Shown here: in pieces, positions 2,262 through 32,098 of the stretch | Numbering within the stretch: position 1 is the stretch's first letter | Layout of the letters: every line of letters begins with the position of its first letter | DNA from: Defluviitaleaceae bacterium | Lineage (GTDB): Bacteria; Bacillota; Clostridia; Lachnospirales; UBA5962 | Direction: 5' to 3' | Length of the DNA stretch: 36,695 nucleotides | Assembly: GCA_009787355.1 (NCBI GenBank) | Contig: WRGD01000141.1 | Coordinates: 1-36,695 of the forward strand | Position numbers and translations under genes: made by a program | The notes under the pieces: model-generated | Databases searched by the model: none | What the model saw: only the letters and a program-made list of their open reading frames with translations | Told to the model about the DNA's origin: nothing

Positions 2262-2915
2262 GTGATAAAAGTTTATGCTGTTAATATTAACGAACCTATT
2301 TCTAGTGATGATTATATAAATTTTCTATCTCATATTGCAGATGAAAATCTTAATAAAATTAAAAAATTTAGATTTATAGAGGATTCAAAACGAACTCTAT
2401 ATGGAGATTTAATGATTAGATATTTGGTTTGTAAAAATTTTAATATCTTAAATAAACATATAAAGTATAGATATAATGAATTTGGAAAGCCTTATATTTT
2501 AAATTGTTCAAAAAACGATTCTATATTTGAATTTAATATATCACACTCTGGACAATGGGTAGTTTGTGCTATATCTAAATTTGAAGTAGGGATTGATATA
2601 GAAAAAATTGTTCCTATTGACTTAAATGTAGCTTTAGATTTTTTTTCTAAATCAGAATATACAAAATTAATGTCTGTATCGGAAAATATTAAGTTAAATT
2701 ACTTTTACAGTATATGGACATTAAAAGAAAGTTATATAAAATTTCTAGGTAAAGGTTTATCAGTTCTTTTGGATTCTTTTAGCGTATGTGTTGAAAAAGA
2801 TTTTGTCATTGATTTTTATAAAGAATATAAATTAGCTATTTACACAGAAAATGATGAATTTCCAAAAAAAATAGAAATTTTAAAGATTGCTGATATAGTT
2901 AAGGAGATTATTTAA
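2262..2915 (+). CDS. Sfp-type 4'-phosphopantetheinyl transferase
   Basis: The 217-residue protein transfers 4'-phosphopantetheine from coenzyme A to the active serine of carrier domains, here presumably the six T domains of the NRPSs downstream. The family signatures are in order: FGKPY at 74-78, FNISHSG at 91-97, GIDIE at 110-114 (Mg2+-binding Asp and Glu) and WTLKESYIK at 152-160 (KES core). The length is normal for the Sfp/Gsp class. The start is GTG at 2262 with AGAAAGG at 2245-2251; the ATG two bases earlier is followed at once by a stop. It is the first gene of the operon. Its TAA is immediately followed by the ATG of the first NRPS, whose ribosome binding site AAGGAG (2901-2906) lies inside this gene, so the two are translationally coupled. 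Confidence 0.95.
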   Translation: MIKVYAVNINEPISSDDYINFLSHIADENLNKIKKFRFIEDSKRTLYGDLMIRYLVCKNFNILNKHIKYRYNEFGKPYILNCSKNDSIFEFNISHSGQWVVCAISKFEVGIDIEKIVPIDLNVALDFFSKSEYTKLMSVSENIKLNYFYSIWTLKESYIKFLGKGLSVLLDSFSVCVEKDFVIDFYKEYKLAIYTENDEFPKKIEILKIADIVKEII

Positions 2916-5900
2916 ATGAATATTAGTAATGAAGAAAGAATATTAAAAGAATTTAATAACACTACTACTGAATATCCTAAAAGTAAAAATGTTTCTATAG
3001 TATTTGAAGAGCAGGTAATAAAAAATTCTCATAAAACAGCTGTTTTCTATAATAGTAAAAGTTTAAGTTATAATGAACTTAATGAAAAAGCTAATCAATT
3101 AGCTCGTAAGCTTATAGAAAAAGGAGTATCTCGAGGTTCTTTTGTAGGTATTTTTGCTCAAAAAAGTCTTGAAATGATTATAGGCTTATTTGCGATAATA
3201 AAAGCTGGTGCAGCTTATGTTCCAATTGACCCTAAATATCCTGAGGAAAGAATTAATTATATAATAAAAGACTGCAATCCTAAATTAATATTGACTTTTG
3301 GTGAAAAATTAAATTTCATAAAAAGATTTTTTGATATTTCTATTTATGAAAATTATTCTAATATGCCTAAAGACAATTTAGTTATTACAAATAGTTCAGA
3401 AGATTTAATATATGTAATTTATACATCAGGAACTACAGGAAAACCTAAAGGCGTTATGATTGAACATAAAAATGTTCTTCGCTTAGTTAAAAACACTAAT
3501 TTTGTTAACTTAGATGAAAATACTAAAATATTACAAACAGGTTCTCTTTCTTTTGATGCTTCTACTTTTGAAATATATGGATCTCTTCTAAATGGAGGAC
3601 AGCTAACACTTGTAGATTCCGAAGAACTTTTAGACAACGTAAAGTTTTCGAGTAGATTAAAAGAATATGAAATTAATACGATGTTTATAACTAATGCTCT
3701 TTTTAATCAAATGATTAGTATAGATGAAACTATATTTGATTCCTTATCTAACATACTGGTTGGTGGTGAAATACTTTCTGAAAAATATGCAAAAAAATTA
3801 ATAGACAGAAATAAAGCGAGATTTATACATGTATATGGTCCTACTGAAAATACGACTTTTACAACTAGTTATAACTACTATGATAGTAGTTTAAAAAGAA
3901 AAATTACACCCATAGGAAAACCGATAAACAATACTAAAGTTTACATAATAAATGACGGAAAATTGTGTGATATAGGTGTTTCTGGAGAGCTTTGTATAGC
4001 TGGTGATGGGCTTGCACGTGGTTATTTAAATCAAGATGAATTAACACAAAAAAAGTTTATTGATAACCCTTATGATGAAGGGAAATTATACTGTAGTGGA
4101 GATCTTGTAAAATGGTTAGAAGACGGTAACATAGAATATATAGGTAGAATAGACGAACAAGTCAAAATTCATGGTTTTAGAATTGAACTTGGAGAAATTG
4201 AGAGTGTTCTTAAAAAGAACCCCTTAGTAGTAGATTGTGCTGTAGTAGTTCGTGAAAATAGTTCTTACGATAAAATATTATGTGCATATTTTGTTTCTGA
4301 AGTTGAAGTTTTAATAGATAATCTGAAAGAAGATTTATCTAAAGAATTGCCAGAATATATGATTCCTAAATATTTTATGCAAGTAGAAAGTCTTCCTATT
4401 ACTATAAATGGAAAAATAGACAAAAGAAATCTACCAGAAATTAAGATAGAAAATGATACTTTTAATTATATAGTTCCTAGAAATAAAAAAGAATTGTTGT
4501 TAAGTAATATTTTTGAACAAGTTCTTAATTTAGAAAAAGTAAGTCTAGATAGTAGTTTTTTTGATTTAGGAGGTCATTCTTTAAAAGCAACACTTTTAAT
4601 AAACCAAATAGAAGAAAACACAGGTGTCAGACTTAAACTAAATGATATATTTAAAAATCAAAATATTGAAAAATTAAGTAAGCTTATAAATATAGATAAT
4701 ACTTTGTATGAAAAAATTCCTAAATGCTCTGTAAAGTCTAGTTATCCTATGTCTTTTGCACAAAAAAGAATGTACCTAACTTGGCAAATGGACACAAGCA
4801 GTATAGCTTATAATATTTCTTATGTTTTTAAAATAATCGGTGAAGTTGATATTAAAAAATTAAAGTTTTGTATAAATAAACTAATTGAAAGACATGAAAT
4901 ATTAAGAACTAATTTCATTTTTGAAAATGAAGAGTTCAAACAAATAGTAAATGAAAGTTTAGAATTTGAAATTTTCCATGAAGAAGATAAAGATACACCA
5001 GAACAATCTATACTAGAAAATTTTGTTCAGAAATTTGATTTGTCTAAAGCTCCTATTTTTAGAGTTAGCTTAATTGATAGGGGAGAACATAGTCTTTTAC
5101 TATTTGATATGCACCATATTATTGGTGATGGTATGAGTGTAGGTAATTTTATTAAAGAACTTTCATCTATTTATAATGGTAACCAATTAGAGCAATTAAC
5201 AGTTCAATATAAAGATTATAGTGAATGGATTATAAATAAAGATTTTTCTGCACAAAAGAATTATTGGGAGAAAATTTATTTAGATGAAATAGAAGTTCTT
5301 AATATGCCTTTAGATTTTCCACGTCCTAAATTTCAAAGTTTTGAAGGAGATAGAATATCTTATACTTTTAGTAATGAGCTTATAGAAAAAATTAAGTATT
5401 TAACACAAAAAACTGATACTACACAATATATGATATTTTTATCTGCTGTTATGATTTTATTGGGTAAGTATAGCTATAGTGAAGATGTAGTTATAGGTAG
5501 TCCTATAAGTGCTAGAACTCATAAAGATACAGAGTCTATGTTGGGTATGTTTGTAAATATGTTGCCTATGAGAGCAAGACCTGAAAGACATAAGAATTAT
5601 AGAGATTTTTTAGAAGAAATAAAATATTTTAGTTTAAATTCATATGAAAATCAAGATTATCCTTATGAAAATTTAATAGAATCTTTAAGTCTTGCTAGAG
5701 ATATTTCAAGAAATCCATTATTTGACGTTGCTTTAGTTTTACAAAATAATGAAAATATTTCACTTAACTTTAATAATATAAATGTTCAGCAAATTAAATT
5801 TCCAAATAAAACATCAAAATTTGATCTAACATTTGAAATAGAAGAAAAAGAGGGTATTTATACCTTATTTTTAGAGTATAGAACAGATTTATATACTTTA

Positions 5901-8900
5901 AATACTGCAACCAGACTTATTTCTTCTTATATAGAAATTTTGAATCAAATTGTAAAATCGCAAGATATGTTAATCAGGGATATAGATTTGTCAAGTGTTC
6001 AGGATAAAGAAAAGATTCTAAAATCTTTTAATAGAACTGAAAGCTATTATCCAGAATACAAAACTATAGTAGATTTATTTGAAGAACAAGTAGAAAAAAC
6101 ACCTAATAATATAGCCATAGTGTACGAAGATAAAAAATTAACATATTTAGAGCTTAATGAAAAGTCTAATAGTTTAGCTCACTTACTTCGTAAAAAAGGA
6201 GTTAGTAAAAATAGTTTTGTTGCCATTTTAACAGAAAGAAGTATTGAAATGATAATAGCTATTTATGCTGTAATAAAATCTGGTGGAGCGTATGTACCTA
6301 TAGATACTGATTATCCTTTAGACAGAATAAATTATATTATAGATAATTGTAATACGAAAATAATTATAACGGATATCGAAAATATAATATTAAATAATAT
6401 AGAAACTATAAATATTTTAGATGAAGCAATATATGAAAATTATCCTAAAGAAAATCCGTTTCATATTAATACTTCAAATGACTTGTTGTATGTAATATAT
6501 ACTTCTGGGACAACAGGAAAACCTAAAGGAGTAATGATTGAACATAAAAATTTAGTTAGACTTTTATTTAATAATGATTTTCAATTTGATTTTTCTGAAC
6601 AAGACACTTGGACAATGTTTCATTCTTATTGCTTTGATTTTTCTGTTTGGGAAATGTACGGTGCTACTCTAAGAGGTGGAAAACTGGTCGTTATTCCTAA
6701 ATATAAAATCAAAGATTCGGAGCTTTTATTAGACGAACTAGAGAAAAATAAAGTTACTGTACTAAATCAAGTTCCATCATCTTTTTATAATTTAATGCAT
6801 GAAAAAGTAAATGGTTATAAATATTTAAAATATTTAATATTCGGTGGAGAGGCTTTACAACCTAAAAAATTATATGAATGGTATAAATCAAACTCTCACG
6901 TTAAAATTGTAAATATGTATGGTATTACAGAAACTACAGTTCATGCAACTTATCAAGAAATTGGAGATTATGAAATAAAAAAAGGTATAAGTAGTATCGG
7001 TTCTGCAATACCTACACTTAAAATTTATATTTTAGATGGAGATAATCTGTGTGGAATCGGTATTCCAGGAGAACTTTGCGTATCAGGAGAAGGTCTTGCT
7101 CGAGGTTATTTAAATTTGAAAGAACTAACTAATGAAAAATTCATCAAAAATCCTTATGGTGAAGGTAAGTTATATCGTAGTGGTGATTTAGCAAGATGGC
7201 TAGAAGATGGTAATATAGAATATTTAGGTAGGATAGATGAACAAGTTAAAATTCGTGGATTTAGAATAGAGCTTGGTGAAATAGAAAATACAATCAGAAG
7301 TTATTCTGGAATAAAAGATTCAATTGTAATTGTTCATGAAGATATTTATGGAGACAAAGCTTTATATGGTTATGTGGTTTCTTCAGAAAATATAGAAATT
7401 AATAAGTTGAAAGAACATTTATCTAAAGAACTTCCAGAACATATGATTCCTAGTTATTTAATGCAGATAGAACAAATTCCAATTACTTTTAACGGTAAAT
7501 TAGACAAAAAGAATTTGCCACAAATAAAGTTGCGTACAGAAAACGAATATATAGCTCCTAGAAATGAAAAAGAAGAAGCTCTTAGTATTACATTTAAAGA
7601 AATTTTAGGTTCTGAAATAGTTGGTGTTAAAGATAGCTTTTTTGCTCTAGGTGGTGATTCTATTAAAGCTTTACGTATTGTATCTAAAATGAGAGAAAGA
7701 AATTATGACCTTCATGTTAGAGATATTTTAAATGAGCGTACTATAGAGTCTATTTGCGAAAAAGTTGTGGTATCTAAGGAACTTAAATATGAGCAAGGAG
7801 AAGTTATAGGGATTGTAAAACCAACTCCAATAATTAAAACTTTTGAATCTTGGAATTTAGAAGAACCTCATCATTTTAATCAATCTATGATGATAAAAGT
7901 AAATGGAAACTTTAAAGCTGTAGAAAAATCAATAGAAACTATAGTAAGGCACCATGATATGCTTAGAGCTGTATATTCAGAAAAACAGCTTAGAATTGTT
8001 AAAAATGACTATAAAAGATATGAATATAAAGTATTTGACTATGCAAATGAAGATAGTGAATTTATTACTCAAGAAAAAATTCAAATGGTATGTAATGATA
8101 TTCAGAAAAGTGTGGATTTAAAAAAAGGTCCTTTGGTTAAATGTGCATTTTTTAAAACTAAAAAAGGTCATTACTTATTTATTTGTGTGCATCACTTAAT
8201 AATAGATGGTGTATCTTGGAGAATATTAATTGAAGACATCAACACGGTTTTGAAACAAATCGAAAAAAATGAAGAAATTAAACTTCCTAAAAAAACTGCT
8301 TCGTTTATAGAATGGTCTGAGATGTTAGAAGATTACAAGAATAGTAAAAACCTTAAAAAAGAAAGTAACTACTGGTCTAAAATAGAATCTGAAATTTCAG
8401 AAATTGATTATAAATTACAATCAACTGGATACAAAAAATTTTATGACTTAATATCTTTTGAGCTTAGTGAAGAAGAAACTTCTAATTTATTAAAAGATAG
8501 TAGTAAAGCCTATAATACAGAAATTAATGATTTACTATTAAGTTCATTAAGCATGGTAATGAGATGTCTTTATGAAAATAAAGATAAAATGGTAGTATTG
8601 TTAGAGGGTCATGGAAGAGAACAGCTTCATAATGATATAAAAATAGATAGAACAGTAGGTTGGTTCACTACAATATATCCTATAATATTAAATCGATATG
8701 AAACTATTGAAGATAGTATAATCAGCACCAAAGAAATGCTTAGAAAAATCCCTAATAATGGTATAGGATATAGCCTTATATCAAAATTTAATAAAGAAAT
8801 TGATATAAGTTTTAACTATCTTGGAGAAATAGAAGAAAGTTCAGAGAAATATAATTATTATAAAATCGGTAATGAGATATCTGAAAAAAATATACTACCT

Positions 8901-9149
8901 CAAGGGATAATGCTAGATGGAGTTATTAAAGACAAAAAACTTAAATTTGAAATCAGATATGATAAGAGCAAATATTTATTTGATAAAATATCCATGTTTT
9001 TTGAAGAATATAAAAAAATGCTTCAAGATATTATTTTTCATTGCTGTACAAAAAATATGACAACTATTACAATTTCTGATGTTTCTGATGAAATGATTGA
9101 TAATCAAGAATTTGATGAAATATCAAATTCTCTTAAAATGCTACTTTAA
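2916..9149 (+). CDS. NRPS 1, loading plus one extension module: A-T-C-A-T-E
   Basis: This 2077-residue enzyme starts the peptide. Domains: A1 (about 20-510; YTSGTTGKPKG core at 166-179), T1 (Ser555 in GGHS), C (about 605-1035; HHIIGDG at 733-739), A2 (about 1050-1540; core at 1192-1205), T2 (Ser1582 in GGDS, typical of T before E) and E (about 1615-2040; HHLIIDG at 1759-1765, EGHGRE at 1897-1902, RTVGWF at 1912-1917). By alignment to GrsA the A1 pocket reads D-A-F-F-L-G-V-T-F, like isoleucine/branched aliphatic codes. A2 reads D-F-W-N-I-G-M-V-H, the canonical threonine code. The predicted product is (Ile-like)-D-Thr on T2. There is no starter C or formylation domain, so the N-terminus should stay a free amine. 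The last 30 residues look like a COM donor helix for NRPS 2. All catalytic motifs are present. Confidence 0.93.
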   Translation: MNISNEERILKEFNNTTTEYPKSKNVSIVFEEQVIKNSHKTAVFYNSKSLSYNELNEKANQLARKLIEKGVSRGSFVGIFAQKSLEMIIGLFAIIKAGAAYVPIDPKYPEERINYIIKDCNPKLILTFGEKLNFIKRFFDISIYENYSNMPKDNLVITNSSEDLIYVIYTSGTTGKPKGVMIEHKNVLRLVKNTNFVNLDENTKILQTGSLSFDASTFEIYGSLLNGGQLTLVDSEELLDNVKFSSRLKEYEINTMFITNALFNQMISIDETIFDSLSNILVGGEILSEKYAKKLIDRNKARFIHVYGPTENTTFTTSYNYYDSSLKRKITPIGKPINNTKVYIINDGKLCDIGVSGELCIAGDGLARGYLNQDELTQKKFIDNPYDEGKLYCSGDLVKWLEDGNIEYIGRIDEQVKIHGFRIELGEIESVLKKNPLVVDCAVVVRENSSYDKILCAYFVSEVEVLIDNLKEDLSKELPEYMIPKYFMQVESLPITINGKIDKRNLPEIKIENDTFNYIVPRNKKELLLSNIFEQVLNLEKVSLDSSFFDLGGHSLKATLLINQIEENTGVRLKLNDIFKNQNIEKLSKLINIDNTLYEKIPKCSVKSSYPMSFAQKRMYLTWQMDTSSIAYNISYVFKIIGEVDIKKLKFCINKLIERHEILRTNFIFENEEFKQIVNESLEFEIFHEEDKDTPEQSILENFVQKFDLSKAPIFRVSLIDRGEHSLLLFDMHHIIGDGMSVGNFIKELSSIYNGNQLEQLTVQYKDYSEWIINKDFSAQKNYWEKIYLDEIEVLNMPLDFPRPKFQSFEGDRISYTFSNELIEKIKYLTQKTDTTQYMIFLSAVMILLGKYSYSEDVVIGSPISARTHKDTESMLGMFVNMLPMRARPERHKNYRDFLEEIKYFSLNSYENQDYPYENLIESLSLARDISRNPLFDVALVLQNNENISLNFNNINVQQIKFPNKTSKFDLTFEIEEKEGIYTLFLEYRTDLYTLNTATRLISSYIEILNQIVKSQDMLIRDIDLSSVQDKEKILKSFNRTESYYPEYKTIVDLFEEQVEKTPNNIAIVYEDKKLTYLELNEKSNSLAHLLRKKGVSKNSFVAILTERSIEMIIAIYAVIKSGGAYVPIDTDYPLDRINYIIDNCNTKIIITDIENIILNNIETINILDEAIYENYPKENPFHINTSNDLLYVIYTSGTTGKPKGVMIEHKNLVRLLFNNDFQFDFSEQDTWTMFHSYCFDFSVWEMYGATLRGGKLVVIPKYKIKDSELLLDELEKNKVTVLNQVPSSFYNLMHEKVNGYKYLKYLIFGGEALQPKKLYEWYKSNSHVKIVNMYGITETTVHATYQEIGDYEIKKGISSIGSAIPTLKIYILDGDNLCGIGIPGELCVSGEGLARGYLNLKELTNEKFIKNPYGEGKLYRSGDLARWLEDGNIEYLGRIDEQVKIRGFRIELGEIENTIRSYSGIKDSIVIVHEDIYGDKALYGYVVSSENIEINKLKEHLSKELPEHMIPSYLMQIEQIPITFNGKLDKKNLPQIKLRTENEYIAPRNEKEEALSITFKEILGSEIVGVKDSFFALGGDSIKALRIVSKMRERNYDLHVRDILNERTIESICEKVVVSKELKYEQGEVIGIVKPTPIIKTFESWNLEEPHHFNQSMMIKVNGNFKAVEKSIETIVRHHDMLRAVYSEKQLRIVKNDYKRYEYKVFDYANEDSEFITQEKIQMVCNDIQKSVDLKKGPLVKCAFFKTKKGHYLFICVHHLIIDGVSWRILIEDINTVLKQIEKNEEIKLPKKTASFIEWSEMLEDYKNSKNLKKESNYWSKIESEISEIDYKLQSTGYKKFYDLISFELSEEETSNLLKDSSKAYNTEINDLLLSSLSMVMRCLYENKDKMVVLLEGHGREQLHNDIKIDRTVGWFTTIYPIILNRYETIEDSIISTKEMLRKIPNNGIGYSLISKFNKEIDISFNYLGEIEESSEKYNYYKIGNEISEKNILPQGIMLDGVIKDKKLKFEIRYDKSKYLFDKISMFFEEYKKMLQDIIFHCCTKNMTTITISDVSDEMIDNQEFDEISNSLKMLL

Positions 9150-9188
9150 TTATATTAATTAAATTGAGAAAGGGTTTGTTATTTAACA

Positions 9189-12100
9189 ATGAATGAAGAA
9201 AAAAAAATAGAAAAAATATATTCGCTTACCCCTCTTCAAGAAGGTATGCTTTTTCATAACTTAGAAAATAGCAAGTCAACTGACTATATTGTTCAAAATA
9301 TATTAACAGCTACAGGAAATCTTGACAAATTTGCTATTAGGAAAGCTCTTGATTATTTAGAAAAACGCCATGCAGTTCTTAGAACTTCTATTGTATATGA
9401 AAGACTAAAAAGTCCTAAACAAGTTGTTCTTTCTAATAAGCCAATAGAATTTAACTTTATTGATTTAAGTTTAAATTCTATTGAAGACCTTGAAAAAGAA
9501 TTTAAAAAAATTGTTAAAGAAGATTTGCAAAGAGGCTTTAATTTAACTATTGATAGTCTTATTCGTCTAACTTGTGTTAAATACAACGAAGATAATTATA
9601 AATTTATTTGGTGTTTTCATCACATAATTATGGATGGTTGGTGTTTATCTTTAGTTTTTGGGGACTTCTTTAAATATTACAATTTGTCTTTAAACAATAA
9701 AAATGAAAATGATATTTTGGTTCAAATAGAAAAAGAAATAAGACATAGTTTAAGTTATTCTGACTATATCAGTTGGTTATCAAATCAAGACCATGAAGAA
9801 TCAATTAATTATTGGAGAAATCTTCTTTATGATTATGAAGGAACATCGAGTATTGATAGCATTTCTTTTGATTTGCAATCAGAAGAACAAATGGCACAAC
9901 TAAAAAGAGGTTTTGGTAAAGAGTTAACTAAAAAATTAATTAATAAGGCAAAGGAAAACAACGTAACTCTAAACACTATAGTTGAATCCGCATGGGGTAT
10001 TATTTTACAAAATTATAACAATAGTCATGATGTGGTTTTTGGTAAAACTGTATCTGGAAGAGATGCAAATTTAAAAGGTATAGATAATACGATAGGATTG
10101 TTTATAAATACTATACCTGTTAGAGTTAAAACTGATAAAGATATCGAAATATTAGATTTGTGGAAAAATACACAAAAACAAGCTAATGATAGTATAAGCT
10201 ATCAATACTCTTCTCTTGCAGATATACAAAGAGAAACTATACCTAAGAAAAATTTGATTCAAACTTTATTTGTTTTTGAAAATTATCATGTAGATGAAGA
10301 GCGTCTTGGAGAAGGAATGAAAGGACTTTCTTTAAAATCAGACTTTGCTCGTGAACAAATAAATTATGATATTGGCTTATCTATGTATTGCGAAAATGAA
10401 GAATTGATTGCTAGTATTATGTATGACCCTAGAAAGTATTGTTTATCTGAAATTGAAAGGCTTTTAGATAGAATAAATAAAGTTCTTTTATGCTTTAGTG
10501 AAAATGAAAATATGAAAGTTTCTATGATTGATTTAATTACTGTTTCAGAGAAAAATAAAATATTAACTGTATTTAATAATACCGACAGCAATTACGACAG
10601 AAGTAAAACAATAATACATCTTTTTGAAGAACAAGTAGAGAAAACACCTAATAATATAGCTATAGTTTATGAAGATAAAAAATTAACTTATAAAGAGTTA
10701 AATGTTAGGGTAAATCAACTTGCTCATTTTTTAAGGGAAAAAGGTATAAAGCAAAATGATTTTGTTGGTATATTTTCTGAAAGAAGTATTGAAATGATAA
10801 TATCTATATATGCTATCATTAAGTCTGGTGCGGCTTACGTTCCAATCGATACTAATTATCCAGATGAAAGAATTAGATACATATTGGAAGATAGTAATCC
10901 TAAAATAATTTTGACTAATTCAAACAAAAAATTAAATGTTGATTTTGAAATTTTTGACTTTGAAAATATCAATTTAATTTTTCAAAATTATAGTAATAAA
11001 AATCCTGAAAAATTAAATGAATTAGAAGATTTGGCATATGTCATTTATACTTCTGGAACTACTGGCAACCCAAAAGGTGTAATGGTTATGCATAAAGGTA
11101 TTGTTTGTTTAAAAGATTATTTAGGAAAAGTTTATGAAGTAACTGAAAAAGATAACGTACTTCAATTTGCTAACTATGTATTTGATGGTTCTGTTTGGGA
11201 AATGTCAATGGCATTATTTCATGGTGCTACACTAGTAATACCTTCAAATGAAAAAATTAAAGATATTAATGTCATGGAACATTATTGTGAAGAACAAGAT
11301 ATTTCTATTGTAGCTTTGCCACCTAATTATTATGTAAATATGAAAAGTTTTAGTCCAAGAATTTTAGTTACTGCAGGTTCTGAAAGTAGTAAATACATTG
11401 CACAAAAAGCTAAAAATAGCAGGTACATCAATGAATACGGTCAGACCGAAAATACTGTTTCAGCTACTTATTTTGAACAAGATAATCATGATTTTATTAG
11501 AAATAAAATTCCTATTGGAAAACCTAAACGTAATACAAAAGTATATATTTTAAATTACAACAAACTTTGTGGAATAGGTATACAAGGAGAGATATGTATA
11601 TCAGGAGACAGCTTAGCAAAAGGTTATTTAAATAGAAAAGAACTTACTAAAGAGAAATTTATAAGTAATCCTTATGGAAAAGGAATACTTTATCGTAGTG
11701 GAGATATTGGTAGATGGCTTGAAGATGGTAACATAGAGTTTTTAGGAAGAATAGATGAACAAGTTAAAATTCGTGGTTTTAGAATAGAACTAGGTGAAAT
11801 TGAAAGTGTTCTTAGAAATGAAGAAATAATTAAAGATGTGGCTATTATCTCAAAAAAAGATAATACAGGGGACATAGATATATATGTGTACTTTGTTTCA
11901 GAAAGCCATGTAAAAGAAGATTATTTAAAAGAACAACTATCAAAAAAATTGCCAAGCTATATGATTCCTAATTATTTTATACAAATAGATAAAATACCCA
12001 CAACTATAAATGGTAAATTGGATAAAAGAAATCTTCCAGAAATAAAATTTAAAACAGAAACACAATATATAGGACCTAGAAACAATTGTGAAGAAATATT

Positions 12101-16706: not shown

Positions 16707-16737
16707 ATAAAATTTAATCATATAAGGAGAACATCAA

Positions 16738-19700
16738 ATGACAAGTGAAAAATCTAAAAATAATATTGAAGATATATATAGTTTGACTCCTATGCAAGAG
16801 GGGATATTATTTCATCACTTAGAAGACAGCAGTTCTTCGGCATATGTAATTCAAAATATAATCCATGTAGAAGGAAATTTTGATGATGAGTATATATTGA
16901 AAGCATTGGATCTCTTAAGTAAAAGGCACAGCTCTCTTAGAACGGCAATAGCATATGAAGGTCTTGAAAAACCTTTGCAAGTTGTTTTGAACAATAGAAA
17001 TATAGAGTATAAAAGCATAGATTTAAGCAAATTAGAAGAATTAGAAAAAGAGATTAAAATCAAAGAAGTTATAAAAAAAGATTTAGATAGGGGATACAAT
17101 CTTACAAATGATAGTTTATTAAGATTAACAAAAATTAAAACAGACAAAAATGTTCATAAATTAATATGGAATTTTAATCATATTATTATAGATGGATGGT
17201 GTTTATCTATAATATTTGTAAACTTTTTCGAATATTATAGTTATATTGAAAAAGGTAAACATAATGATATTTCTTTTAAAATAGAAAACGATAAAAAAAT
17301 AGGGGCAAAATATAGCGATTATATTAAGTGGATATCTTCCAAAAATCTAAAAGCCTCCCTCTCTCATTGGGGAGAGCTTTTGGCAGGCTATGACTCAAAT
17401 TCTGTAATTGATAGTTTTGAGAAGTTAGAAGAAACTGAAAATCAAATGGACAGATTAGAACTATCTATTGGAAAAGAAATTAGTGAAAAAGTTCTTAAAC
17501 TGTCTAAAGAAAATGGCATTACAATTAATACAATAATGGAAGCTGTTTGGGCAATCATTTTGCAAAAATATAATAATAGTAATGATATTGTATTTGGTAA
17601 AGTTGTTTCTGGAAGAGATGCTAATATAAAAGGAATTGAAGAAATGGTAGGCTTATTTATAAATACCATACCTGTTCGTGTAAATAATAATGATAATAAA
17701 AGTGCTATAGATTTATGGCAATACTTACAGGAACAGTATAATTCTAGTATTGGTCATCATCATTGTTCTTTAGCAGATATACAACAAAATAGTACACAGG
17801 GTAGTAATCTTATTAAAACTTTATTTGTTTTTGAAAATTATCACGTAGATTCAGATAAATTGGATAGTTATATGAAGGATTATTCAGTTCAAATAGAATA
17901 CGGAAGAGAGCAAACAAATTATGATATAAGTGTTAGTTCTTATTTTAAAAGTGAAAATTTAAATATTAGTATAATGTATAATCCAAATAAATATTCAAAA
18001 TATGAAATTATTCTTCTTTTAGATAGAATTAATTTAGTTTTAGAAAAAACTTTAGAAAATCCTAATATTAAAGTTAAAGACATAGAGATAGTGAGTAGTT
18101 TTGAAAAGATTAAAATCTTAAAAGATTTTAATAATACACAATCAAATTATCCAAAAGATAAGACTGTTATTAAATTGTTTGAAGAGTGTGTAGAAAATTT
18201 TCAAAATAAAATAGCTGTAACTTATAACAATAAAAGTTTAAGCTATAACGAACTAAATTTAAAAGCTAATAAACTTGCACATTTTTTAATAAAGAAAGGT
18301 GTCGGTCGTAATGATTTTGTAGGTATATTTTGTGAAAAAAATCTTGAAATGATTATAGGCATATTAGGAATATTAAAGACAGGTGCAGCTTATGTTCCAA
18401 TAGATTCTAATTATCCAGAAGAAAGAGTTAAATATATATTAGAAGACTGTAAACCTAAATTTGTGCTGTCTACTAAAGAAATTGTTGAAAGTGAAAAAGA
18501 AGTAGAAATTAGTAACTTTGAACAAATAAATGAACCAGAAGATTTAATATATGTTATTTATACTTCTGGAACTACTGGAACACCAAAAGGAGTTATGGTT
18601 GAACATAAAAATGTTGTTAGACTTGTCAAAAATAATAACTATGTTCCATTAAACGAAGAAACAAAAATATTACAAACAGGTTCACTCGCTTTTGATGCTT
18701 CTACTTTTGAAATATATGGTTCTCTTCTTAATGGAGGAAAGTTATTTCTTCTTGATACAAACGATTTGACCGATATTAGTATTTTTAAAGAAAATTTAAC
18801 CAAGTATAATATAAATACAACTTTTATAACCACTACTCTTTTTCATCAATTTATAAATATAGATGAAAGTTTATTTGATAGCGTTTCTAATTTACTAGTT
18901 GGTGGTGAAGTTCTTTCTGGACAATATGCTAGAAAGCTTATAAATAGAAAAACTGCAAATTTAATAAATGTATATGGTCCTACTGAAAACACTACATTTA
19001 CTACTAGTTATAGTTGTGAAAAAATTAAAAAAATTATACCTATAGGTAAACCCATTAATAATACAAAAGTTTATATATTAGATAACAATAATAATCTTTG
19101 TGGGATTGGAATACCGGGAGAACTTTGTATATGTGGAGATGGAGTTTCACGTGGCTATTTAAATAAAGAAGATTTAACTATAGAAAAATTTATTGATAAT
19201 CCTTATGGAAAAGGTAAATTATATCGTAGTGGCGATTTAGTGAAATGGCTTAAAGACGGAAACATAGAATATATAGGAAGAATAGATGAACAAGTAAAAA
19301 TTCGAGGGTTTCGTATTGAACTTGGTGAAATTGAAAGCGTTTTAAAAAATCAGAATGAAGTCAGCGAAGTAGCAGTTGTTGTAAAGTATGATTCAGCTGG
19401 AGAAAAAATTTTATGTGCATATATAGTTGGAAATGAAAATTTAGAAATAGATTTTCTTAAAAAAGAGTTGTTAAAGTATATTCCAAACTATATGATTCCA
19501 AGTTATATTGTTAAAATTGAAAAAATGCCTATTACAGCTAATGGGAAATTAGATAAAAAAAGTTTGCCAGACTTTAATATTGAATTAAAAAAATCTTTTA
19601 TAGCTCCAAAAACAAATACAGAAAAAATTTTAAATACGCTTTTTAAAGACATACTAGGATTAGGAAAAGTAAGTATAAATGACAATTTTTTTGAATTAGG

Positions 19701-22700
19701 TGGTCATTCTTTAAGGGCAAGTAAGCTTGTAAACCGCATTGAATCAGAAACGGGCGTTAAAATTCATATTAAAGATGTTTTTAATTTTTCTACAATAGAA
19801 CAGCTAGGTAATATAATAGACATTAAAAATTCCAATTATATTCCTATACCAAGAGCAACTTTAAAAGAATTTTATGATATGTCTTCAGCTCAAAAAAGAA
19901 TATATATAATTCAACAAATGGATAAAAATAATCTCGTCTACAATATGCCGCATATTATTAAAATTAAAGGACATATTGATTTAGAAAGAATAAAATATAG
20001 CTTTTCATCTTTAATTAATCGTCATGAAATACTTAGGACTAATTTTATAATGAAAGATGATGAACTTAAACAAAAAATTTTAGAATCTGTAAATGTAGAT
20101 GTTTCATATGTAGTAGATAAAAATAGTTCTGAATCAGAAATTGTAAAAAGATTTATAAAATCCTTTGACTTATCTAAGGATTTACTAGTTAGAATAAATC
20201 TTATAGAAAGGAAAGAGCATTTTCTTTTAATTTTCGATATGCACCATATTATAAGCGATGGAATGAGTATGGGAACATTTATAAAAGAATTTTCAAATTT
20301 ATATAACGGTATTAAATTAGAAAATTTAACCCATCAGTATAAAGATTATAGTGAATGGATGAAAGAAAGAAATCTAACTTCACAAGAACAATATTGGCAG
20401 AATATTTATTCAGATGATATACCAATTCTTAATATGCCGTTAGATTACCAAAGACCTAAAAAACAAAGTTTTAAAGGAAATTTAGAAAGAAGATTAATAA
20501 GCGGAGAAGTTGCTTCTTTAATTAGAAAACTTTCTAAAGAAACTAATAGCACTGAATATATGGTGTTTTTATCTGCTGCTATGGTTCTGCTTAGTAAATA
20601 TAGTAGACAAGAAGATTTAATAATAGGTAGCCCAGTAATCGGTAGAACGCATAGGGATACAGAAAAAATGCTGGGTATGTTTATAAATACTTTGGCAATG
20701 CGTGGAAAACCAGAAAAAGAAAAAGTATATGGAGATTTTTTAAATGAAATAAAAGAATTTTGTCTACAGTCTTATGAAAATCAAGAATATCCATATGAAG
20801 AGCTAATAGATAAACTAGTAATTGAGAGGGATGTATCAAGAAATCCTATGTTTGATGTAATGCTAGTTTTTCAAAACAATGAAAGCATGGCATATAAATT
20901 AGCTGGTTCAGAAATAGAAATGATAAACTTAGAGCATACTGTATCCAAGTTTGATTTAACTTTTAATATAGAAAAATTAGATGAAGGATATGAAGTATTT
21001 TTAGAATATAATATTGATTTATATAAGCCTAGCACTATACAAAGAATTTTGGATTCTTATATATCCCTTTTGGAACAAGTTAGTAGAGAAAGAAAGGTTT
21101 TCATCAAAGATATACAATTAATAAGTGAAAGAGACAAATCTGATATATTGCTTTCTTTCAATAAAACTAAAAATGAATATTCAAGGGATAGAACTATAAT
21201 AGACTTATTTGAAGAACAAGTAAAAAAATCTCCTCATAAAATAGCAGTAGTATATGACAATAAAAAATTAAGCTATGAACAATTAAATGAAAGTTCTAAT
21301 AAAATCGCACATATATTAAGAAAAAAAGGTATAGGAAAGAGTGATTTAGTAGGAATTTTAAGCAATAAAAGTCTAGAAATGATAGTTGGTATTTTTGGTA
21401 TATTAAAGTCTGGTGCAGCATATATCCCTATTGACTCTAAGTATCCTAAAAAACGGATTAAATACATATTAGATGATTGCAATTTGAAATTACTCTTTGT
21501 ATTTGATGATAACTTCAATAAAAATCTTGGATTAAAAGTTAAAATTTTAAATTTAATGAATAAGGAGCTATATGATTCTGTACCTAAAAATAACCCTATA
21601 AAAGTTAATTCTCCAGAAGATTTAGCTTATATAATCTATACTTCTGGGACAACAGGAAAACCAAAAGGTGTAATGGTCGAACATAGAAATGTTGTTTCTT
21701 TAAATAATTATTTTAAAAATGATTATGAAATAACTGAAGAAGATAATATATTACAATTTGCAAATTATGTTTTTGATGCTTCTGTATGGGAAATGACAAT
21801 GGCATTATATAACGGAGCAACTCTTATAATTCCAACTACTAATATTATTCAAGACCCTAAGTTGTTGTCAGAATATTGTAATAAAAAAGAAATTTCAATA
21901 GCAACAATTCCTCCTAATTATTATGTGAATATGGAGCCATTAAATGCTAGAATTATAATAACTGCAGGTTCTGAAAGTAGTAAAGATATAGTTACTAAGT
22001 CAAAGAATAGTAGATATATAAATGCTTACGGACCTACAGAAAATACTATAGTTGCGACTCATTGGGAATACAAAGGAGGAGAACTAAATAACAAAATACC
22101 TATCGGAAAACCAATTATGAACACTCAAATATATATTCTAGATGGTGATAACCTTTGTGGGATAGGAATGCCAGGAGAGATTTGTATTGCAGGAACTAAC
22201 TTATCAAGAGGATATTTAAATAATGATAAGTTAACGAAAGAAAAATTTGTCAATAACCCTTATGGAGAAGGTAAAATCTATAGAAGTGGTGATTTAGCAA
22301 GGTGGCTTGAAGATGGCAATATAGAGTTTTTAGGAAGAATAGATGAACAAGTTAAAATTCGTGGTTTTAGAATAGAACTAGGCGAAGTTGAAAGCGTTCT
22401 TAGAAAACACAAAGATATATGTGATGTTTCCGTTATAACTCGAGAAGATAATGCAGGAGACAAAGCTTTATATTCGTATATAGTGTCAGAAAAATTAGTT
22501 GATGTAAGCTTGTTAAAAGATTTTTTATCAAAAGAGCTTCCAAACTATATGATTCCTAATTATTTTATGCAAATAGATAAAATACCAATGACTGTTAATG
22601 GTAAAGTAAATAAAAAAGCTTTGCCAAAAATAGAAGCAGTTAATATTAATGATTATGTAGAACCTAGAAGTGAAAAAGAAAAAGTTTTAAGCAATATATT

Positions 22701-25512
22701 TAAAGAAGTTTTAGGAATAAAAGAGGTAAGCGTCAAAGATAGCTTTTTTGCACTTGGAGGAGACTCTATAAAAGCTATGAAAGTAGTTTCTAAAATGAGG
22801 GAAGCAGGTTATGAGCTTAATATTGTAGATGCTATGTCTAGTAAGACTATTTCAGCTATGAGTGAAGTAGCCGCTGTCGCAGAAAAAATTCTTTATGAGC
22901 AAAATGAAGTAACAGGAACTGTTAAAGAAACACCTATAATGAAGATGTTCAGAAACTGGAATTTAGAAGAACCTCATCATTTTAATCAATCTATAATGAT
23001 AAAAGTAGATACAACTCCAGACTATGTAGAAGAAGCTATTAAATATATAGTAAGTCATCATGATATACTTAGAGCTATATACACTGGTACAAACTTAGAA
23101 ATTCTTGCAAATGATTGTAAAAGATATGGATATGAAGTATGTGATTATAGAAATAACAATAATGAAAGTGTAAAAACAACAGAAGAACAAATTTATAATA
23201 AATGTGATTATATACAAAGAAGCATGAACTTAGAAAAAGGACCTCTAATCAAATTTGTTCTTTTCAATTTGTACGAAGGTAATTACTTATTTATTTGTAT
23301 TCATCATTTATTAGTAGATGGAGTTTCTTGGAGAATTTTAATTGAAGATATAAATACTGCTCTAAATCAAGTTAAAGAGAATAAAGAAATTAAACTTCCT
23401 AAAAAGACTGCTTCGTTTATAGAATGGTCTAATTTGTTAGATGAATATAAAAAAAGTGATGACTTAAAAAAAGAAATAGAATATTGGGATAAAATAGAAT
23501 TAGATTTTGAAAAAGGTAGATTAAATCACAGTCATAATGAATTTGAAGTCGGTTCTGGAGAAGAAAGCTTTGAACTAACTGAAGAAACTACTTACAAACT
23601 TTTAAAAGAAAGTGGAACTGCTTACGATACGGAGATTAATGAATTGTTACTAAGTTCTTTTGGAAATAGTATCAAAGAAATATTTAATCAAGATAATATA
23701 ACAATTACATTAGAAGGGCATGGAAGAGAAAGTCTTCATAAAGACATAAAAGTAGATAGAACAGTTGGTTGGTTCACAACTACGTACCCTGTAATCCTTG
23801 ATTGCTATGAAGAAATAGAAGAAAGTATATTGAAAACTAAAAATATGATTAGAAAAATACCTAATCGTGGTATAGGCTATAGTTTAGTTTCAAATAAATC
23901 TATAGACAACAATATAACTTTTAACTATTTAGGTGAAATAAATAGTAATAATAAAGATGGAGAAAAGACTTATAAAATAGGAAATCCTATATCTGAAAAA
24001 AATAAAATTTTTGAAAAGGGTATTTCTATTACTGGAATTGTACAGAAGTCTAAGCTATCATTTTTAATAAATTACGATAAAAATAATTACAGTTCAAAAG
24101 CTATAAATAAACTTTCAAACTCCTTTAGAAATAAACTTCTTGACACTATAGAACATTGTTATTCTAGGAGAAAAGCAGACGTAACTACAAAAACTTTAGA
24201 TTTACAAGACTTATTTGAAAATCCTACGGTAGCGCAGCTTATTGAATTAATGGAGACCGGTGGTCAAGGTAGTAGTAAATATAAAGAGCATGATTTTAAT
24301 GAAATTCATAGTCTTTTATCAAATAATAAAATTGGTGGTAAAATTGCACCAAAACAGTCTTTAGGGGACACTCTAATAACTGGTGTTACAGGTTGGTTAG
24401 GAGCACATATACTTGATTCTTTTTTGAAAAATGAAAATGCAATAGCATACTGTTTAGTTCGTGGTTCAGACTTAAATGATAGTAAAAATAGACTTCATCA
24501 TATTTTAACACAATATTTTGGTGAAGAATATTTTAATAATGATAGAATAGTTGTTATTTGTGGTGATATATCACAAAAAATAAATTTAGATAAAAATATT
24601 AAAACTATAATAAACTGTGCAGCAAATGTTAAACATTATGGAGAGTATGATTATTTTTATGATATAAACGTAGGAGGAATTAAAAATTTAATTTCTTTAG
24701 CTAAAGAAAAGAATGCTAAATTGATTCACACATCTACAGCTTCTGTAGCTGGAAACGAATTTGACTCTGACCCAGATTTTCCAAATACAGTTTTTAGTGA
24801 AACTAGTTTATTTATCGGACAACCTCTTAGAAATGTTTACGTTAGAAGTAAATTTGAAGCTGAATATGAAATTTTAAAAGCAAAGTTAGAAGGTCTTGAA
24901 GCTGTTGTAATACGTGTTGGAAATTTGACTAATAGATTTAGTGATTTTAAATTTCAAAAAAATTACTCCGAAAATGCTAATCTTAATAGAATTAAGGCAT
25001 TTGCTGATTTAGGTTCTTTCTTAGAATTTTTCAAAGACTTGCCTATATATGGTTACTCTCCCGTTGATATATCTGCCTATGCAGTTATCAAAATTTCACA
25101 ACACTATAACGACGACTTTTCAATATTCCACGCATATAATCATAAATCATTCCCTTTTGGAAATATGGCAGAAGCTTTAAATCTTGATTTTCTACAACCT
25201 AAAGAATTTATAGATAAAGTTAATATGACTTCTAATGATAAAGATAAAGCCCATATTTATGAGGCATTTGTTGGAGATATAAAGTTTTTGAATGAAATGA
25301 GTCATGTTATAAGTTTACCTGAAAATGAAAGACCATCTATAGAAGAACTTATTTCTAAAAGGCATAGTAATATAACTTTGAATAACGATTTTACTGTATG
25401 GTATTTATCGCAAATTGGTTTTGAATGGCCAAATATTGATGAGAGATATATTAGAGGGTACGTTAAATATTTTAATGATATAGGTCATTGGAATATAAAA
25501 GAAAATAAGTAA
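16738..25512 (+). CDS. NRPS 3, two extension modules and reductive release: C-A-T-C-A-T-E-(T remnant)-R
   Basis: This 2924-residue enzyme adds residues 5 and 6 and releases the chain. Domains: C1 (NHIIIDG at 147-153; the first, non-catalytic His of HHxxxDG is Asn, the catalytic His148 is kept), A1 (core 605-618; pocket D-A-F-F-L-G-V-T-F, as in NRPS 1 A1), T1 (Ser991), C2 (HHIISDG 1169-1175), A2 (core 1631-1644; pocket D-A-W-T-I-A-A-I-V, Phe), T2 (Ser2010, GGDS), E (HHLLVDG 2189-2195, EGHGRE 2326-2331) and a thioester reductase domain (about 2540-2924). The reductase has GVTGWLG at 2549-2555 for NAD(P)H and the catalytic Tyr2701/Lys2705 pair (YVRSK). Residues 2482-2506 (..LFENPTVAQLIELM) match only the last helix of a carrier domain, so no second Ser carrier lies between E and R. 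Reduction would give a peptide aldehyde. AAGGAGA at 16724-16730 is the ribosome binding site. No thioesterase is present. Confidence 0.93.
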   Translation: MTSEKSKNNIEDIYSLTPMQEGILFHHLEDSSSSAYVIQNIIHVEGNFDDEYILKALDLLSKRHSSLRTAIAYEGLEKPLQVVLNNRNIEYKSIDLSKLEELEKEIKIKEVIKKDLDRGYNLTNDSLLRLTKIKTDKNVHKLIWNFNHIIIDGWCLSIIFVNFFEYYSYIEKGKHNDISFKIENDKKIGAKYSDYIKWISSKNLKASLSHWGELLAGYDSNSVIDSFEKLEETENQMDRLELSIGKEISEKVLKLSKENGITINTIMEAVWAIILQKYNNSNDIVFGKVVSGRDANIKGIEEMVGLFINTIPVRVNNNDNKSAIDLWQYLQEQYNSSIGHHHCSLADIQQNSTQGSNLIKTLFVFENYHVDSDKLDSYMKDYSVQIEYGREQTNYDISVSSYFKSENLNISIMYNPNKYSKYEIILLLDRINLVLEKTLENPNIKVKDIEIVSSFEKIKILKDFNNTQSNYPKDKTVIKLFEECVENFQNKIAVTYNNKSLSYNELNLKANKLAHFLIKKGVGRNDFVGIFCEKNLEMIIGILGILKTGAAYVPIDSNYPEERVKYILEDCKPKFVLSTKEIVESEKEVEISNFEQINEPEDLIYVIYTSGTTGTPKGVMVEHKNVVRLVKNNNYVPLNEETKILQTGSLAFDASTFEIYGSLLNGGKLFLLDTNDLTDISIFKENLTKYNINTTFITTTLFHQFINIDESLFDSVSNLLVGGEVLSGQYARKLINRKTANLINVYGPTENTTFTTSYSCEKIKKIIPIGKPINNTKVYILDNNNNLCGIGIPGELCICGDGVSRGYLNKEDLTIEKFIDNPYGKGKLYRSGDLVKWLKDGNIEYIGRIDEQVKIRGFRIELGEIESVLKNQNEVSEVAVVVKYDSAGEKILCAYIVGNENLEIDFLKKELLKYIPNYMIPSYIVKIEKMPITANGKLDKKSLPDFNIELKKSFIAPKTNTEKILNTLFKDILGLGKVSINDNFFELGGHSLRASKLVNRIESETGVKIHIKDVFNFSTIEQLGNIIDIKNSNYIPIPRATLKEFYDMSSAQKRIYIIQQMDKNNLVYNMPHIIKIKGHIDLERIKYSFSSLINRHEILRTNFIMKDDELKQKILESVNVDVSYVVDKNSSESEIVKRFIKSFDLSKDLLVRINLIERKEHFLLIFDMHHIISDGMSMGTFIKEFSNLYNGIKLENLTHQYKDYSEWMKERNLTSQEQYWQNIYSDDIPILNMPLDYQRPKKQSFKGNLERRLISGEVASLIRKLSKETNSTEYMVFLSAAMVLLSKYSRQEDLIIGSPVIGRTHRDTEKMLGMFINTLAMRGKPEKEKVYGDFLNEIKEFCLQSYENQEYPYEELIDKLVIERDVSRNPMFDVMLVFQNNESMAYKLAGSEIEMINLEHTVSKFDLTFNIEKLDEGYEVFLEYNIDLYKPSTIQRILDSYISLLEQVSRERKVFIKDIQLISERDKSDILLSFNKTKNEYSRDRTIIDLFEEQVKKSPHKIAVVYDNKKLSYEQLNESSNKIAHILRKKGIGKSDLVGILSNKSLEMIVGIFGILKSGAAYIPIDSKYPKKRIKYILDDCNLKLLFVFDDNFNKNLGLKVKILNLMNKELYDSVPKNNPIKVNSPEDLAYIIYTSGTTGKPKGVMVEHRNVVSLNNYFKNDYEITEEDNILQFANYVFDASVWEMTMALYNGATLIIPTTNIIQDPKLLSEYCNKKEISIATIPPNYYVNMEPLNARIIITAGSESSKDIVTKSKNSRYINAYGPTENTIVATHWEYKGGELNNKIPIGKPIMNTQIYILDGDNLCGIGMPGEICIAGTNLSRGYLNNDKLTKEKFVNNPYGEGKIYRSGDLARWLEDGNIEFLGRIDEQVKIRGFRIELGEVESVLRKHKDICDVSVITREDNAGDKALYSYIVSEKLVDVSLLKDFLSKELPNYMIPNYFMQIDKIPMTVNGKVNKKALPKIEAVNINDYVEPRSEKEKVLSNIFKEVLGIKEVSVKDSFFALGGDSIKAMKVVSKMREAGYELNIVDAMSSKTISAMSEVAAVAEKILYEQNEVTGTVKETPIMKMFRNWNLEEPHHFNQSIMIKVDTTPDYVEEAIKYIVSHHDILRAIYTGTNLEILANDCKRYGYEVCDYRNNNNESVKTTEEQIYNKCDYIQRSMNLEKGPLIKFVLFNLYEGNYLFICIHHLLVDGVSWRILIEDINTALNQVKENKEIKLPKKTASFIEWSNLLDEYKKSDDLKKEIEYWDKIELDFEKGRLNHSHNEFEVGSGEESFELTEETTYKLLKESGTAYDTEINELLLSSFGNSIKEIFNQDNITITLEGHGRESLHKDIKVDRTVGWFTTTYPVILDCYEEIEESILKTKNMIRKIPNRGIGYSLVSNKSIDNNITFNYLGEINSNNKDGEKTYKIGNPISEKNKIFEKGISITGIVQKSKLSFLINYDKNNYSSKAINKLSNSFRNKLLDTIEHCYSRRKADVTTKTLDLQDLFENPTVAQLIELMETGGQGSSKYKEHDFNEIHSLLSNNKIGGKIAPKQSLGDTLITGVTGWLGAHILDSFLKNENAIAYCLVRGSDLNDSKNRLHHILTQYFGEEYFNNDRIVVICGDISQKINLDKNIKTIINCAANVKHYGEYDYFYDINVGGIKNLISLAKEKNAKLIHTSTASVAGNEFDSDPDFPNTVFSETSLFIGQPLRNVYVRSKFEAEYEILKAKLEGLEAVVIRVGNLTNRFSDFKFQKNYSENANLNRIKAFADLGSFLEFFKDLPIYGYSPVDISAYAVIKISQHYNDDFSIFHAYNHKSFPFGNMAEALNLDFLQPKEFIDKVNMTSNDKDKAHIYEAFVGDIKFLNEMSHVISLPENERPSIEELISKRHSNITLNNDFTVWYLSQIGFEWPNIDERYIRGYVKYFNDIGHWNIKENK

Positions 25513-25534: not shown

Positions 25535-25585
25535 AAATCAACAAAACGAAATGAACTTTCTTCTTTTCGTTTTGTTGATTTTTTA
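25535..25585 (+). terminator. Rho-independent terminator of the NRPS operon
   Basis: A perfect 17-bp stem (25535-25551 paired with 25565-25581; core CAACAAAACGAAA) with a 13-base loop runs into a T-run ending at 25585. It follows the NRPS 3 stop codon by 22 bases. The 3' arm also contains the -35 of the next gene's promoter. Confidence 0.9.
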
Positions 25586-25604
25586 TGAAAAAATATGATA
25601 TAAT
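25575..25604 (+). promoter_or_regulatory. Promoter of the FMN-repeat lipoprotein gene
   Basis: TTGATT at 25575-25580, an 18-base spacer and TATAAT at 25599-25604, preceded by TG one base away (TGaTATAAT, extended -10). The -35 lies within the 3' arm of the upstream terminator. The start codon follows 31 bases after the -10. Confidence 0.75.
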
Positions 25605-25635
25605 ATATTTATATAAATTTATAATGGAGGAAAAT

Positions 25636-30943: not shown

Positions 30944-32098
30944 ATGAAAAAAGAATTTATTAAAATTGCTACAGGTTTAGCAATTACTACAGCGATTTCT
31001 TTCGCAGCTACTACAAATGTTTTTGCACATGGTTGGGTAGTAAATGATAGAGCACATCTTGGTTCTGCAAGAGGTGGAAATTTAAATAGTAACATGGGTA
31101 ACGTAGCTTGGGAGCCACAAAGTGTAGGGGAAGTTAGTGGGAGATTTTCTGTAGAAAATGGAAGAATATCTCTAAATGATGCCATATCTGCAAATTCCGG
31201 TACTATAGGTGGTTTTGCAAGTATGAGAGAATTCGGAGCAAATCGTTTCCATCGTGTGCCTATGTCTACTGGTTCTAACCAAATACAATGGTGGTTTACT
31301 GCCCCACATCGTACAAGTACAATTGTTTACTATATTAGTAGACCAGGGTTTAATCCTGCAGCACCTTTAAACTTTGCAGATTTTGAATACATGGCTTCTT
31401 TTAATTATGGTGGTAATCCTCCTGCAAATCCAAGTGTACTGCACACTCACAATGTTCATATTCCGACAGATAGAAGTGGTGCACACGCTATAATGGTGGC
31501 ATGGCATGTTTCCGACAACGATGTTTCTTGGTACCGTATAAAAGATATATATGTTTCGAATGATGGTTCAGTAGCACCGTTGCCAACACCAACACCAACA
31601 CCAACACCAACACCAACACCAACACCAACACCAACACCTGAAACTAATCCAGGTAATGGTAATGACGGAAACCATAACCACGGCAACCCAAATGCTTGGC
31701 GTTCTCACTTTATTTACAACAGAGGTGATATAGTAGAACATAATGGAGCAACATGGGAAGCACAATGGTGGACACAAAGTGAAGAACCAGGAACTACAGG
31801 TGAATGGGGAGTATGGAGACTCGTAAGCGGTAATGTTAATGTAGTAACTCCACAACCAGAACAAGTACCATCTGTTCCAGAAGTAGCTACACCTGAAGTA
31901 ACACCAGCTCCAGAAGTTGTAACACCTCCAACTGGTAATTATGACAGAGTTTTTAGCGGAATTGCTGGAACTACTTACAACGAAGGTGAAATAGTTCTTC
32001 ACAATGGAAGATTATACAGAGTTGTACAAACATTTGTATTTAGTGGAGACCCAAATTGGGCACCAGGTTTAGTTGCATCTCTTTGGGCTGCTCTATAG
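30944..32098 (+). CDS. Secreted AA10 lytic polysaccharide monooxygenase with two chitin-binding-like modules
   Basis: This 384-residue secreted copper enzyme should cut chitin or cellulose chains oxidatively. The signal peptide ends VFA at 26-28, leaving His29 as the mature N-terminus (HGWV). His29 and His122 (TAPHRT) form the copper histidine brace. The AA10 core spans about 29-207, followed by a PT-repeat linker. A CBM5/12-like module comes next (about 250-296: AWRSHFIYNRGDIVEHNG.., AQWWT), then a second proline-rich linker and a second, more diverged CBM5/12-like module at the C-terminus. The residue that is Phe (or Tyr) next to copper in known AA10s aligns here with Trp in SDNDVSWYRIKD. 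The ribosome binding site is AAGGGGG. The gene is alone in its transcript. An oxygen- or peroxide-using enzyme is notable if the host is an anaerobe. The fold is confident; chitin as substrate is inferred from the CBMs. Confidence 0.9.
   Translation: MKKEFIKIATGLAITTAISFAATTNVFAHGWVVNDRAHLGSARGGNLNSNMGNVAWEPQSVGEVSGRFSVENGRISLNDAISANSGTIGGFASMREFGANRFHRVPMSTGSNQIQWWFTAPHRTSTIVYYISRPGFNPAAPLNFADFEYMASFNYGGNPPANPSVLHTHNVHIPTDRSGAHAIMVAWHVSDNDVSWYRIKDIYVSNDGSVAPLPTPTPTPTPTPTPTPTPTPETNPGNGNDGNHNHGNPNAWRSHFIYNRGDIVEHNGATWEAQWWTQSEEPGTTGEWGVWRLVSGNVNVVTPQPEQVPSVPEVATPEVTPAPEVVTPPTGNYDRVFSGIAGTTYNEGEIVLHNGRLYRVVQTFVFSGDPNWAPGLVASLWAAL
31583..31636 (+). repeat. Nine tandem CCAACA hexamers (PT linker)
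   Basis: Nine uninterrupted copies of CCAACA encode a Pro-Thr linker between the AA10 core and the first binding module. A perfect in-frame hexamer array can change length by slippage without a frameshift, so linker length may vary among strains. Confidence 0.95.

Follow-up and report, generated by a model that had tools for sequence, protein, structure and literature searches.

We analysed a 36,695-base window, the entire contig WRGD01000141.1 of the Defluviitaleaceae bacterium assembly GCA_009787355.1, which carries a 4'-phosphopantetheinyl transferase (PPTase) gene and three colinear nonribosomal peptide synthetase (NRPS) genes, all on the plus strand. At a probability of roughly 55%, we favour the reading that these enzymes release an essentially alternating L,D-hexapeptide by reduction and that this peptide cyclizes to an imine. 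Our best prediction for the released product is L-Ile-D-(allo)Thr-X-D-Phe-L-Ile-D-Phe-al, in which X is the residue selected by the third adenylation (A) domain, and by analogy with known peptide aldehydes this hexapeptide probably closes to an 18-membered imine. The third synthetase ends in an epimerization (E) domain followed by a terminal reductase (R) domain, an arrangement that looks like the product of a natural fusion inside a carrier (T) domain.

Domain order was called in two ways, with Pfam and with profiles built from the cluster itself, and both agree with the coordinates and the order A-T-C-A-T-E, C-A-T-C-A-T-E and C-A-T-C-A-T-E-R (C, condensation) proposed in an initial annotation of this DNA. 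The intergenic gaps between PPTase, NRPS1, NRPS2 and NRPS3 are 0, 39 and 31 bases, with the PPTase frame ending on the base that immediately precedes NRPS1, and the four genes therefore very likely form one operon. The three NRPS frames, comprising 7,506 codons, are free of frameshifts and stops, and all T serines and A motifs are retained across the cluster. NRPS1 opens directly on an A domain (A1, from residue 30), and starter C, formylation and thioesterase (TE) domains are absent from the Pfam matches of the three NRPSs, in keeping with the free-amine start that had been suggested. A whole-genome search returned eight Condensation-family domains, all of them in the window, and only one AMP-binding protein elsewhere (455 amino acids); the three proteins of the cluster thus account for all the NRPS C, E and A domains detected in the genome. 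A further NRPS gene that would lengthen the peptide was considered and none was found in this 96.5% complete genome, in which the end of the contig precedes the first open reading frame (ORF1); an extra NRPS gene elsewhere is unlikely. Because the contig starts just 77 bases before ORF1 and the genome falls short of completeness, undetected upstream tailoring genes are possible.

To predict the incorporated residues, the six A domains were aligned to GrsA (1AMU) and the pocket positions were numbered from the PDB match. The code shared by A1 and A5, DAFFLGVTFK, belongs to modules of Planktothrix cyanopeptolin synthetases that incorporate mainly Ile and also Val, and the A2 code, DFWNIGMVHK, to modules that incorporate Thr (PMC2533009); a 2026 paper links DAFFLGVTFK to L-Ile, or to D-allo-Ile once epimerized (PMC13122637). 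Relative to the GrsA Phe code DAWTIAAICK, A4 differs at two positions and A6 at one, and the nearest solved single domains to A4 are TycA and GrsA. Codes and literature thus bear out five of the six residues initially proposed (Ile, Thr, Phe, Ile and Phe), leaving the third, previously given as unknown or aromatic, without a code precedent: a literature search for DGWAVAEVSK gave no match, and the plasmid-borne relatives of A3, at no more than 46% identity, are tied to no product. Gly236, Ala301 and Glu322 of A3 presumably resemble the corresponding positions of Tyr codes and, since the nearest solved relatives of this domain are GrsA and TycA, X is likely aromatic. A3 also reads YGQTE at residue 750 of NRPS2, where the other five A domains read YGPTE or YGITE.

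The predicted alternation of configuration comes from the genes, with an E domain in modules 2, 4 and 6 and a C domain of D-L type (DCL) placed after E2. All three E domains keep the HHxxxDG, EGHGRE, RTVGWF and NYLGE motifs. C3, which opens NRPS2 and follows E2, scores 287-242 bits against BacC, TycB1 and SrfA-C and 36 against LgrA, and the internal C6 of NRPS3 scores 324 bits against TycC, 204 against LgrA and 75 against TycB1; these scores fit the split between DCL and L-L type (LCL) domains that L/D alternation would be expected to produce. C5 appears DCL-like from its DGWCLS motif and its position after E4. E domains in every second module, each internal one followed by a C domain of DCL or DCL-like type, agree with the arrangement recognized in the initial annotation, which had given the second residue as D-Thr; epimerization of L-Thr at C-alpha is instead expected to yield D-allo-Thr.

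The terminal R domain has an NAD(P)H-binding motif (TGVTGWLG, for TGxTGxxG) and the catalytic residues Thr2667, Tyr2701 and Lys2705. An alignment of 57 R domains shows the Tyr and Lys without exception and the Thr in 54 of them, and these features support the reductive release foreseen from the initial reading. Among solved structures the domain comes closest to 6vtj and to the R domain of AusA, an enzyme that releases an aldehyde by two-electron reduction. In the R-domain tree it is sister, with support of 100/99, to an R domain from genome G600 whose protein ends C-A-T-R.

From these features we propose the following sequence of events. The PPTase would arm the carriers; NRPS1 would start from L-Ile with a free amine and add Thr, which E2 would invert; NRPS2 would add X and then Phe, the latter inverted by E4; and NRPS3 would add Ile and Phe, with E6 equilibrating the last residue. 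R would then use NAD(P)H for a two-electron reduction of the hexapeptidyl thioester on T6 to the aldehyde, on which the N-terminal amine may close to give a macrocyclic imine with 18 ring members and alternating chirality. The calculated [M+H]+ of this imine is 753.4334, 769.4283 or 792.4443 for X = Phe, Tyr or Trp; the aldehyde would be heavier by 18.011 and the alcohol by 20.026. The module order, the pocket codes, the intact motifs and the carrier remnant described below are read directly from the sequence, whereas for the residue identities, the two-electron release and the ring closure we infer from known relatives.

The feature that sets NRPS3 apart is the placement of its R domain. We compared it with 62 other R-terminated NRPSs: 56 loci outside the window, retrieved by searching several hundred genomes at each of three taxonomic levels (order, class and phylum) and one Clostridia metagenome-assembled genome, and six plasmid-borne loci. 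In this census, which is not exhaustive because some weaker matches were left unfetched, R lies directly behind T in 62 of 62 cases and E precedes R only in NRPS3, where E6 and a T remnant separate T6 from R. The remnant, LDLQDLFENPTVAQLIELMETG, aligns with the last helix of the R-facing T domains of relatives, and the stretch that comes next, DFNEIHSLLSNN, matches the T-R linker of those relatives. Against a profile of the end of R-facing T domains the helix remnant scores 21.2 bits, as do the genuine carriers T3 (20.6) and T5 (20.0) within a bit or so, whereas the E-facing carriers give 4.0 (T2), 2.4 (T4) and 1.5 (T6), neither NRPS1 nor NRPS2 exceeds 4.5 at its end, and 7.2 is the maximum over 3,730 scored shuffles. 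A second GGxS carrier serine is absent. Together these results indicate that T6 is an E-type carrier and that the helix is left over from an R-type carrier. On the most parsimonious account, the sequence for a C-A-T-C-A-T-E subunit was joined in frame, behind the part encoding E, to the 3' portion of a T-R gene, and NRPS3 looks like the result of such a fusion. Parts also seem to have been duplicated inside the cluster, as the identities of A1 to A5 (63%) and A4 to A6 (66%) suggest. Horizontal transfer was considered and is not claimed; the NRPS genes have 26.4% GC, only a little off the 28.6-30.1% of three other contig samples from the genome.

Table 1. Coding sequences and domains of the cluster; positions refer to the window, and functions and residues are predictions.
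Feature	Positions	Strand	Basis
ORF1, 644 aa, possible regulator, cluster membership uncertain	78..2012	+	Helix-turn-helix-like stretch mid-protein (by eye), weak tetratricopeptide repeat (TPR) match
4'-Phosphopantetheinyl transferase, Sfp/AusB type, carrier activation	2262..2915	+	PF22624 and PF01648 over cut-off
NRPS1, A1-T1-C2-A2-T2-E2	2916..9149	+	Pfam and own profiles
A1, DAFFLGVTFK, Ile	3003..4475	+	Code alignment and literature code
A2, DFWNIGMVHK, Thr	6078..7559	+	Code alignment and literature code
E2, motifs intact	7800..9089	+	Own profiles and motif check
NRPS2, C3(DCL)-A3-T3-C4(LCL)-A4-T4-E4	9189..16706	+	Pfam and own profiles
A3, DGWAVAEVSK, residue X	10623..12077	+	Code alignment; nearest single-domain solved relatives GrsA, TycA (Phe)
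A4, DAWTIAAVVK, Phe-like, 8/10 vs GrsA	13689..15140	+	Code alignment
E4, motifs intact	15381..16658	+	Own profiles and motif check
NRPS3, C5-A5-T5-C6(LCL)-A6-T6-E6-(T remnant)-R	16738..25512	+	Pfam and own profiles
C5, motif NHIIIDG	16771..18108	+	DCL-like by DGWCLS motif and place after E4
A5, DAFFLGVTFK, Ile	18178..19608	+	Code alignment and literature code
A6, DAWTIAAIVK, Phe-like, 9/10 vs GrsA	21208..22665	+	Code alignment
E6, motifs intact, directly precedes release domain	22906..24192	+	Own profiles and motif check
C-terminal helix remnant of lost T domain	24193..24267	+	Profile score and alignment with relatives
R, terminal short-chain dehydrogenase/reductase-type thioester reductase, catalytic residues intact	24340..25509	+	PF07993, 115 bits

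Several known systems share parts of this assembly line. Nostocyclopeptide (NcpA/NcpB) has in common with it a terminal R domain with a Thr-Tyr-Lys triad and an aldehyde that spontaneously forms a macrocyclic imine (PMC7551626), but it is a cyanobacterial product of seven residues with one D residue, and its R domain stands at the C-terminal end of NcpB while its sole E domain is on NcpA. Koranimine (KorA-D, with the PPTase kfp) likewise comes from a Bacillus-type NRPS with an in-cluster PPTase and is a cyclic imine of Thr, Phe and aliphatic residues (PMC9640594), whereas the present cluster pairs each of its six residues with an A domain of its own and lacks a TE. Lugdunin shares reductive release, an alternating D,L backbone and closure of an amine on an aldehyde (PMC8210680, PMC11045845), traits that are here predicted from genes; it differs in having seven residues, a first Cys that gives a thiazolidine, and in LugC one A domain for three Val, in contrast to the Ile-coded first module and the one A domain per residue of the present line. 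Linear gramicidin (LgrA-D, LgrE) is also an alternating L,D peptide made with a terminal R domain, and LgrA is the nearest solved multi-module relative, but its formylation at the start, longer product and second reductase have no counterpart in the present cluster. AusA and small C-A-T-R enzymes (e.g. G600 C9) have the closest R domains by sequence and tree and a PPTase neighbour, yet they consist of one or two modules with a T-R end, as opposed to six modules with E between T and R; against the AusA equivalog NF047350 (cut-off 2500) the three NRPSs score 1771, 1743 and 2002 bits, all below it. With no Cys-loading start, no formylation and a sub-cut-off AusA score, the cluster is neither a lugdunin, a linear gramicidin nor an AusA system. 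Like a macrocyclic-imine line it has a free-amine starter and lacks C-start, formylation and TE domains, and it departs from every such example that we found in having six residues and not seven.

A number of observations weigh against the proposed alternating imine. The product is a prediction from genes, the imine precedents that we found have seven residues each where this line has six modules, and the window contains no gene for export or self-protection. The remaining points concern individual domains and bear on four competing explanations. The strongest of these, which we consider rather unlikely, is that release yields L-Phe or a mixture at the last position, with R accepting the L thioester ahead of E6 or regardless of it, so that alternation would be broken at the ring junction. 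No D-selective C domain lies downstream of E6 to act as a DCL gate, and the last centre could for that reason be L or mixed; moreover, the T-then-R order of all 62 comparison enzymes implies that the ancestor of the NRPS3 R domain was handed a residue that had not been epimerized. E6, however, retains all of its motifs, suggesting selection, and, more speculatively, two altered positions in R could reflect a new substrate. The D configuration given to the last Phe in the initial annotation is less certain than stated there.

Alternatively, the hexapeptide aldehyde could stay linear, or form its hydrate, and act as a protease inhibitor like the leupeptin- and flavopeptin-type aldehydes. Many R-terminated NRPSs do yield small peptide aldehydes and the closest R domains come from short C-A-T-R systems, but a D-configured C-terminal aldehyde is generally a poor protease warhead, and a free N terminus together with six residues would favour closure, as happens in the seven-residue relatives. 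Linear aldehydes outnumber cyclic forms in cells of a nostocyclopeptide producer (PMC7551626). On balance we regard a linear end product as unlikely.

Reduction by four electrons in R, or completion of the reduction by a separate enzyme, would give a linear hexapeptide alcohol. The myxochelin and myxalamid R domains, which perform four-electron reductions, and the second reductase of linear gramicidin appear in the reference list of PMC8949500. Two otherwise conserved positions are altered in the R domain of NRPS3, which has Phe2737 where 53 of 57 domains have Gly and Asn2748 where 52 of 57 have Phe, and these deviations mean that it may react at another rate or transfer another number of electrons. 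The closest R domain, that of L069 in G600, deviates at both positions as well (Leu and Met). The nearest solved relatives of R are nonetheless 6vtj and the AusA R domain, the latter from an aldehyde producer, and there is no aldo/keto reductase gene beside the cluster, unlike in a Paenibacillus polymyxa plasmid cluster. We consider an alcohol quite improbable. The plasmid cluster (L089, on pSb31l) encodes a C-A-T-C-A-T-E protein followed by a four-module T-R enzyme, and its nearby aldo/keto reductase gene recalls LgrE.

Finally, it is very improbable that the line has lost part of its activity or bypasses modules, giving a shorter product or none: C5 has Asn at residue 147 in place of the first motif His (NHxxxDG for HHxxxDG), a His kept by 28 of the 29 C and E domains used for comparison in which the motif could be recognized, and the doubt that this substitution casts on C5 activity is real, if small, but the second His, thought to be catalytic, is kept, the NRPS frames are intact and the T serines and A motifs are all present. 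Neither the C5 substitution nor the carrier remnant between E6 and R had been remarked on in the initial annotation.

We hold the alternating, imine-closed hexapeptide to be the preferred reading. Reductive release, NRPSs with alternating configuration and rings closed by an imine each have precedents. New are the E-then-R order with its scar, the specific peptide sequence and the predicted six-residue ring; a literature search on E-R domain order returned only unrelated text among the matches listed, which is weak evidence of absence. The activity of lugdunin requires alternation, and lugdunin molecules stack to form tubes filled with water, through which protons and monovalent cations pass (PMC11045845). 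Stacking of the present ring into a tube is an analogy, and the imine would have one N-H and one C=O fewer available for it. In its fullest form, a perfectly alternating, imine-closed cyclic hexapeptide that stacks into a narrow membrane tube, made by a line in which E hands a D-residue straight to a reductase through a domain order that a fusion within a carrier domain created in nature and that, to the extent of our checks, had not been described, the proposal is a tentative one.

The genes flanking the operon show several features of their own. ORF1 matches TPR_2 in Pfam at E=5e-4, below cut-off, and gave zero matches in NCBIfam or PDB searches; the PPTase scores 92 bits against the AusB model, also below that model's cut-off. 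Directly downstream of NRPS3, positions 25585-27249 encode a lipoprotein-like protein with five consecutive FMN-binding domains and partial resemblance to RnfG/PplA-type flavoproteins. An AA10 lytic polysaccharide monooxygenase with two CBM5/12 modules (30944-32098) lies near a GH10 xylanase (32787-36176), and such an oxygen-using enzyme would be odd if the host were a strict anaerobe. A low-complexity repeat frame (FASTSARFASTSARFASAS, 36328-36693) runs past the contig end.

For a compact, complete and colinear cluster in which five residues out of six are predicted, the mass of the product is directly searchable, and the cluster, whose function is deduced from sequence, is a well-defined target for genome mining. 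The T-E-(T remnant)-R end marks a natural joining point for NRPS parts, behind an E domain and inside the last helix of a carrier, which may be useful to engineers seeking D-configured aldehydes. Alternating D,L rings underlie both synthetic peptide nanotubes and lugdunin, and a natural six-residue imine would, if true, add a new ring size.
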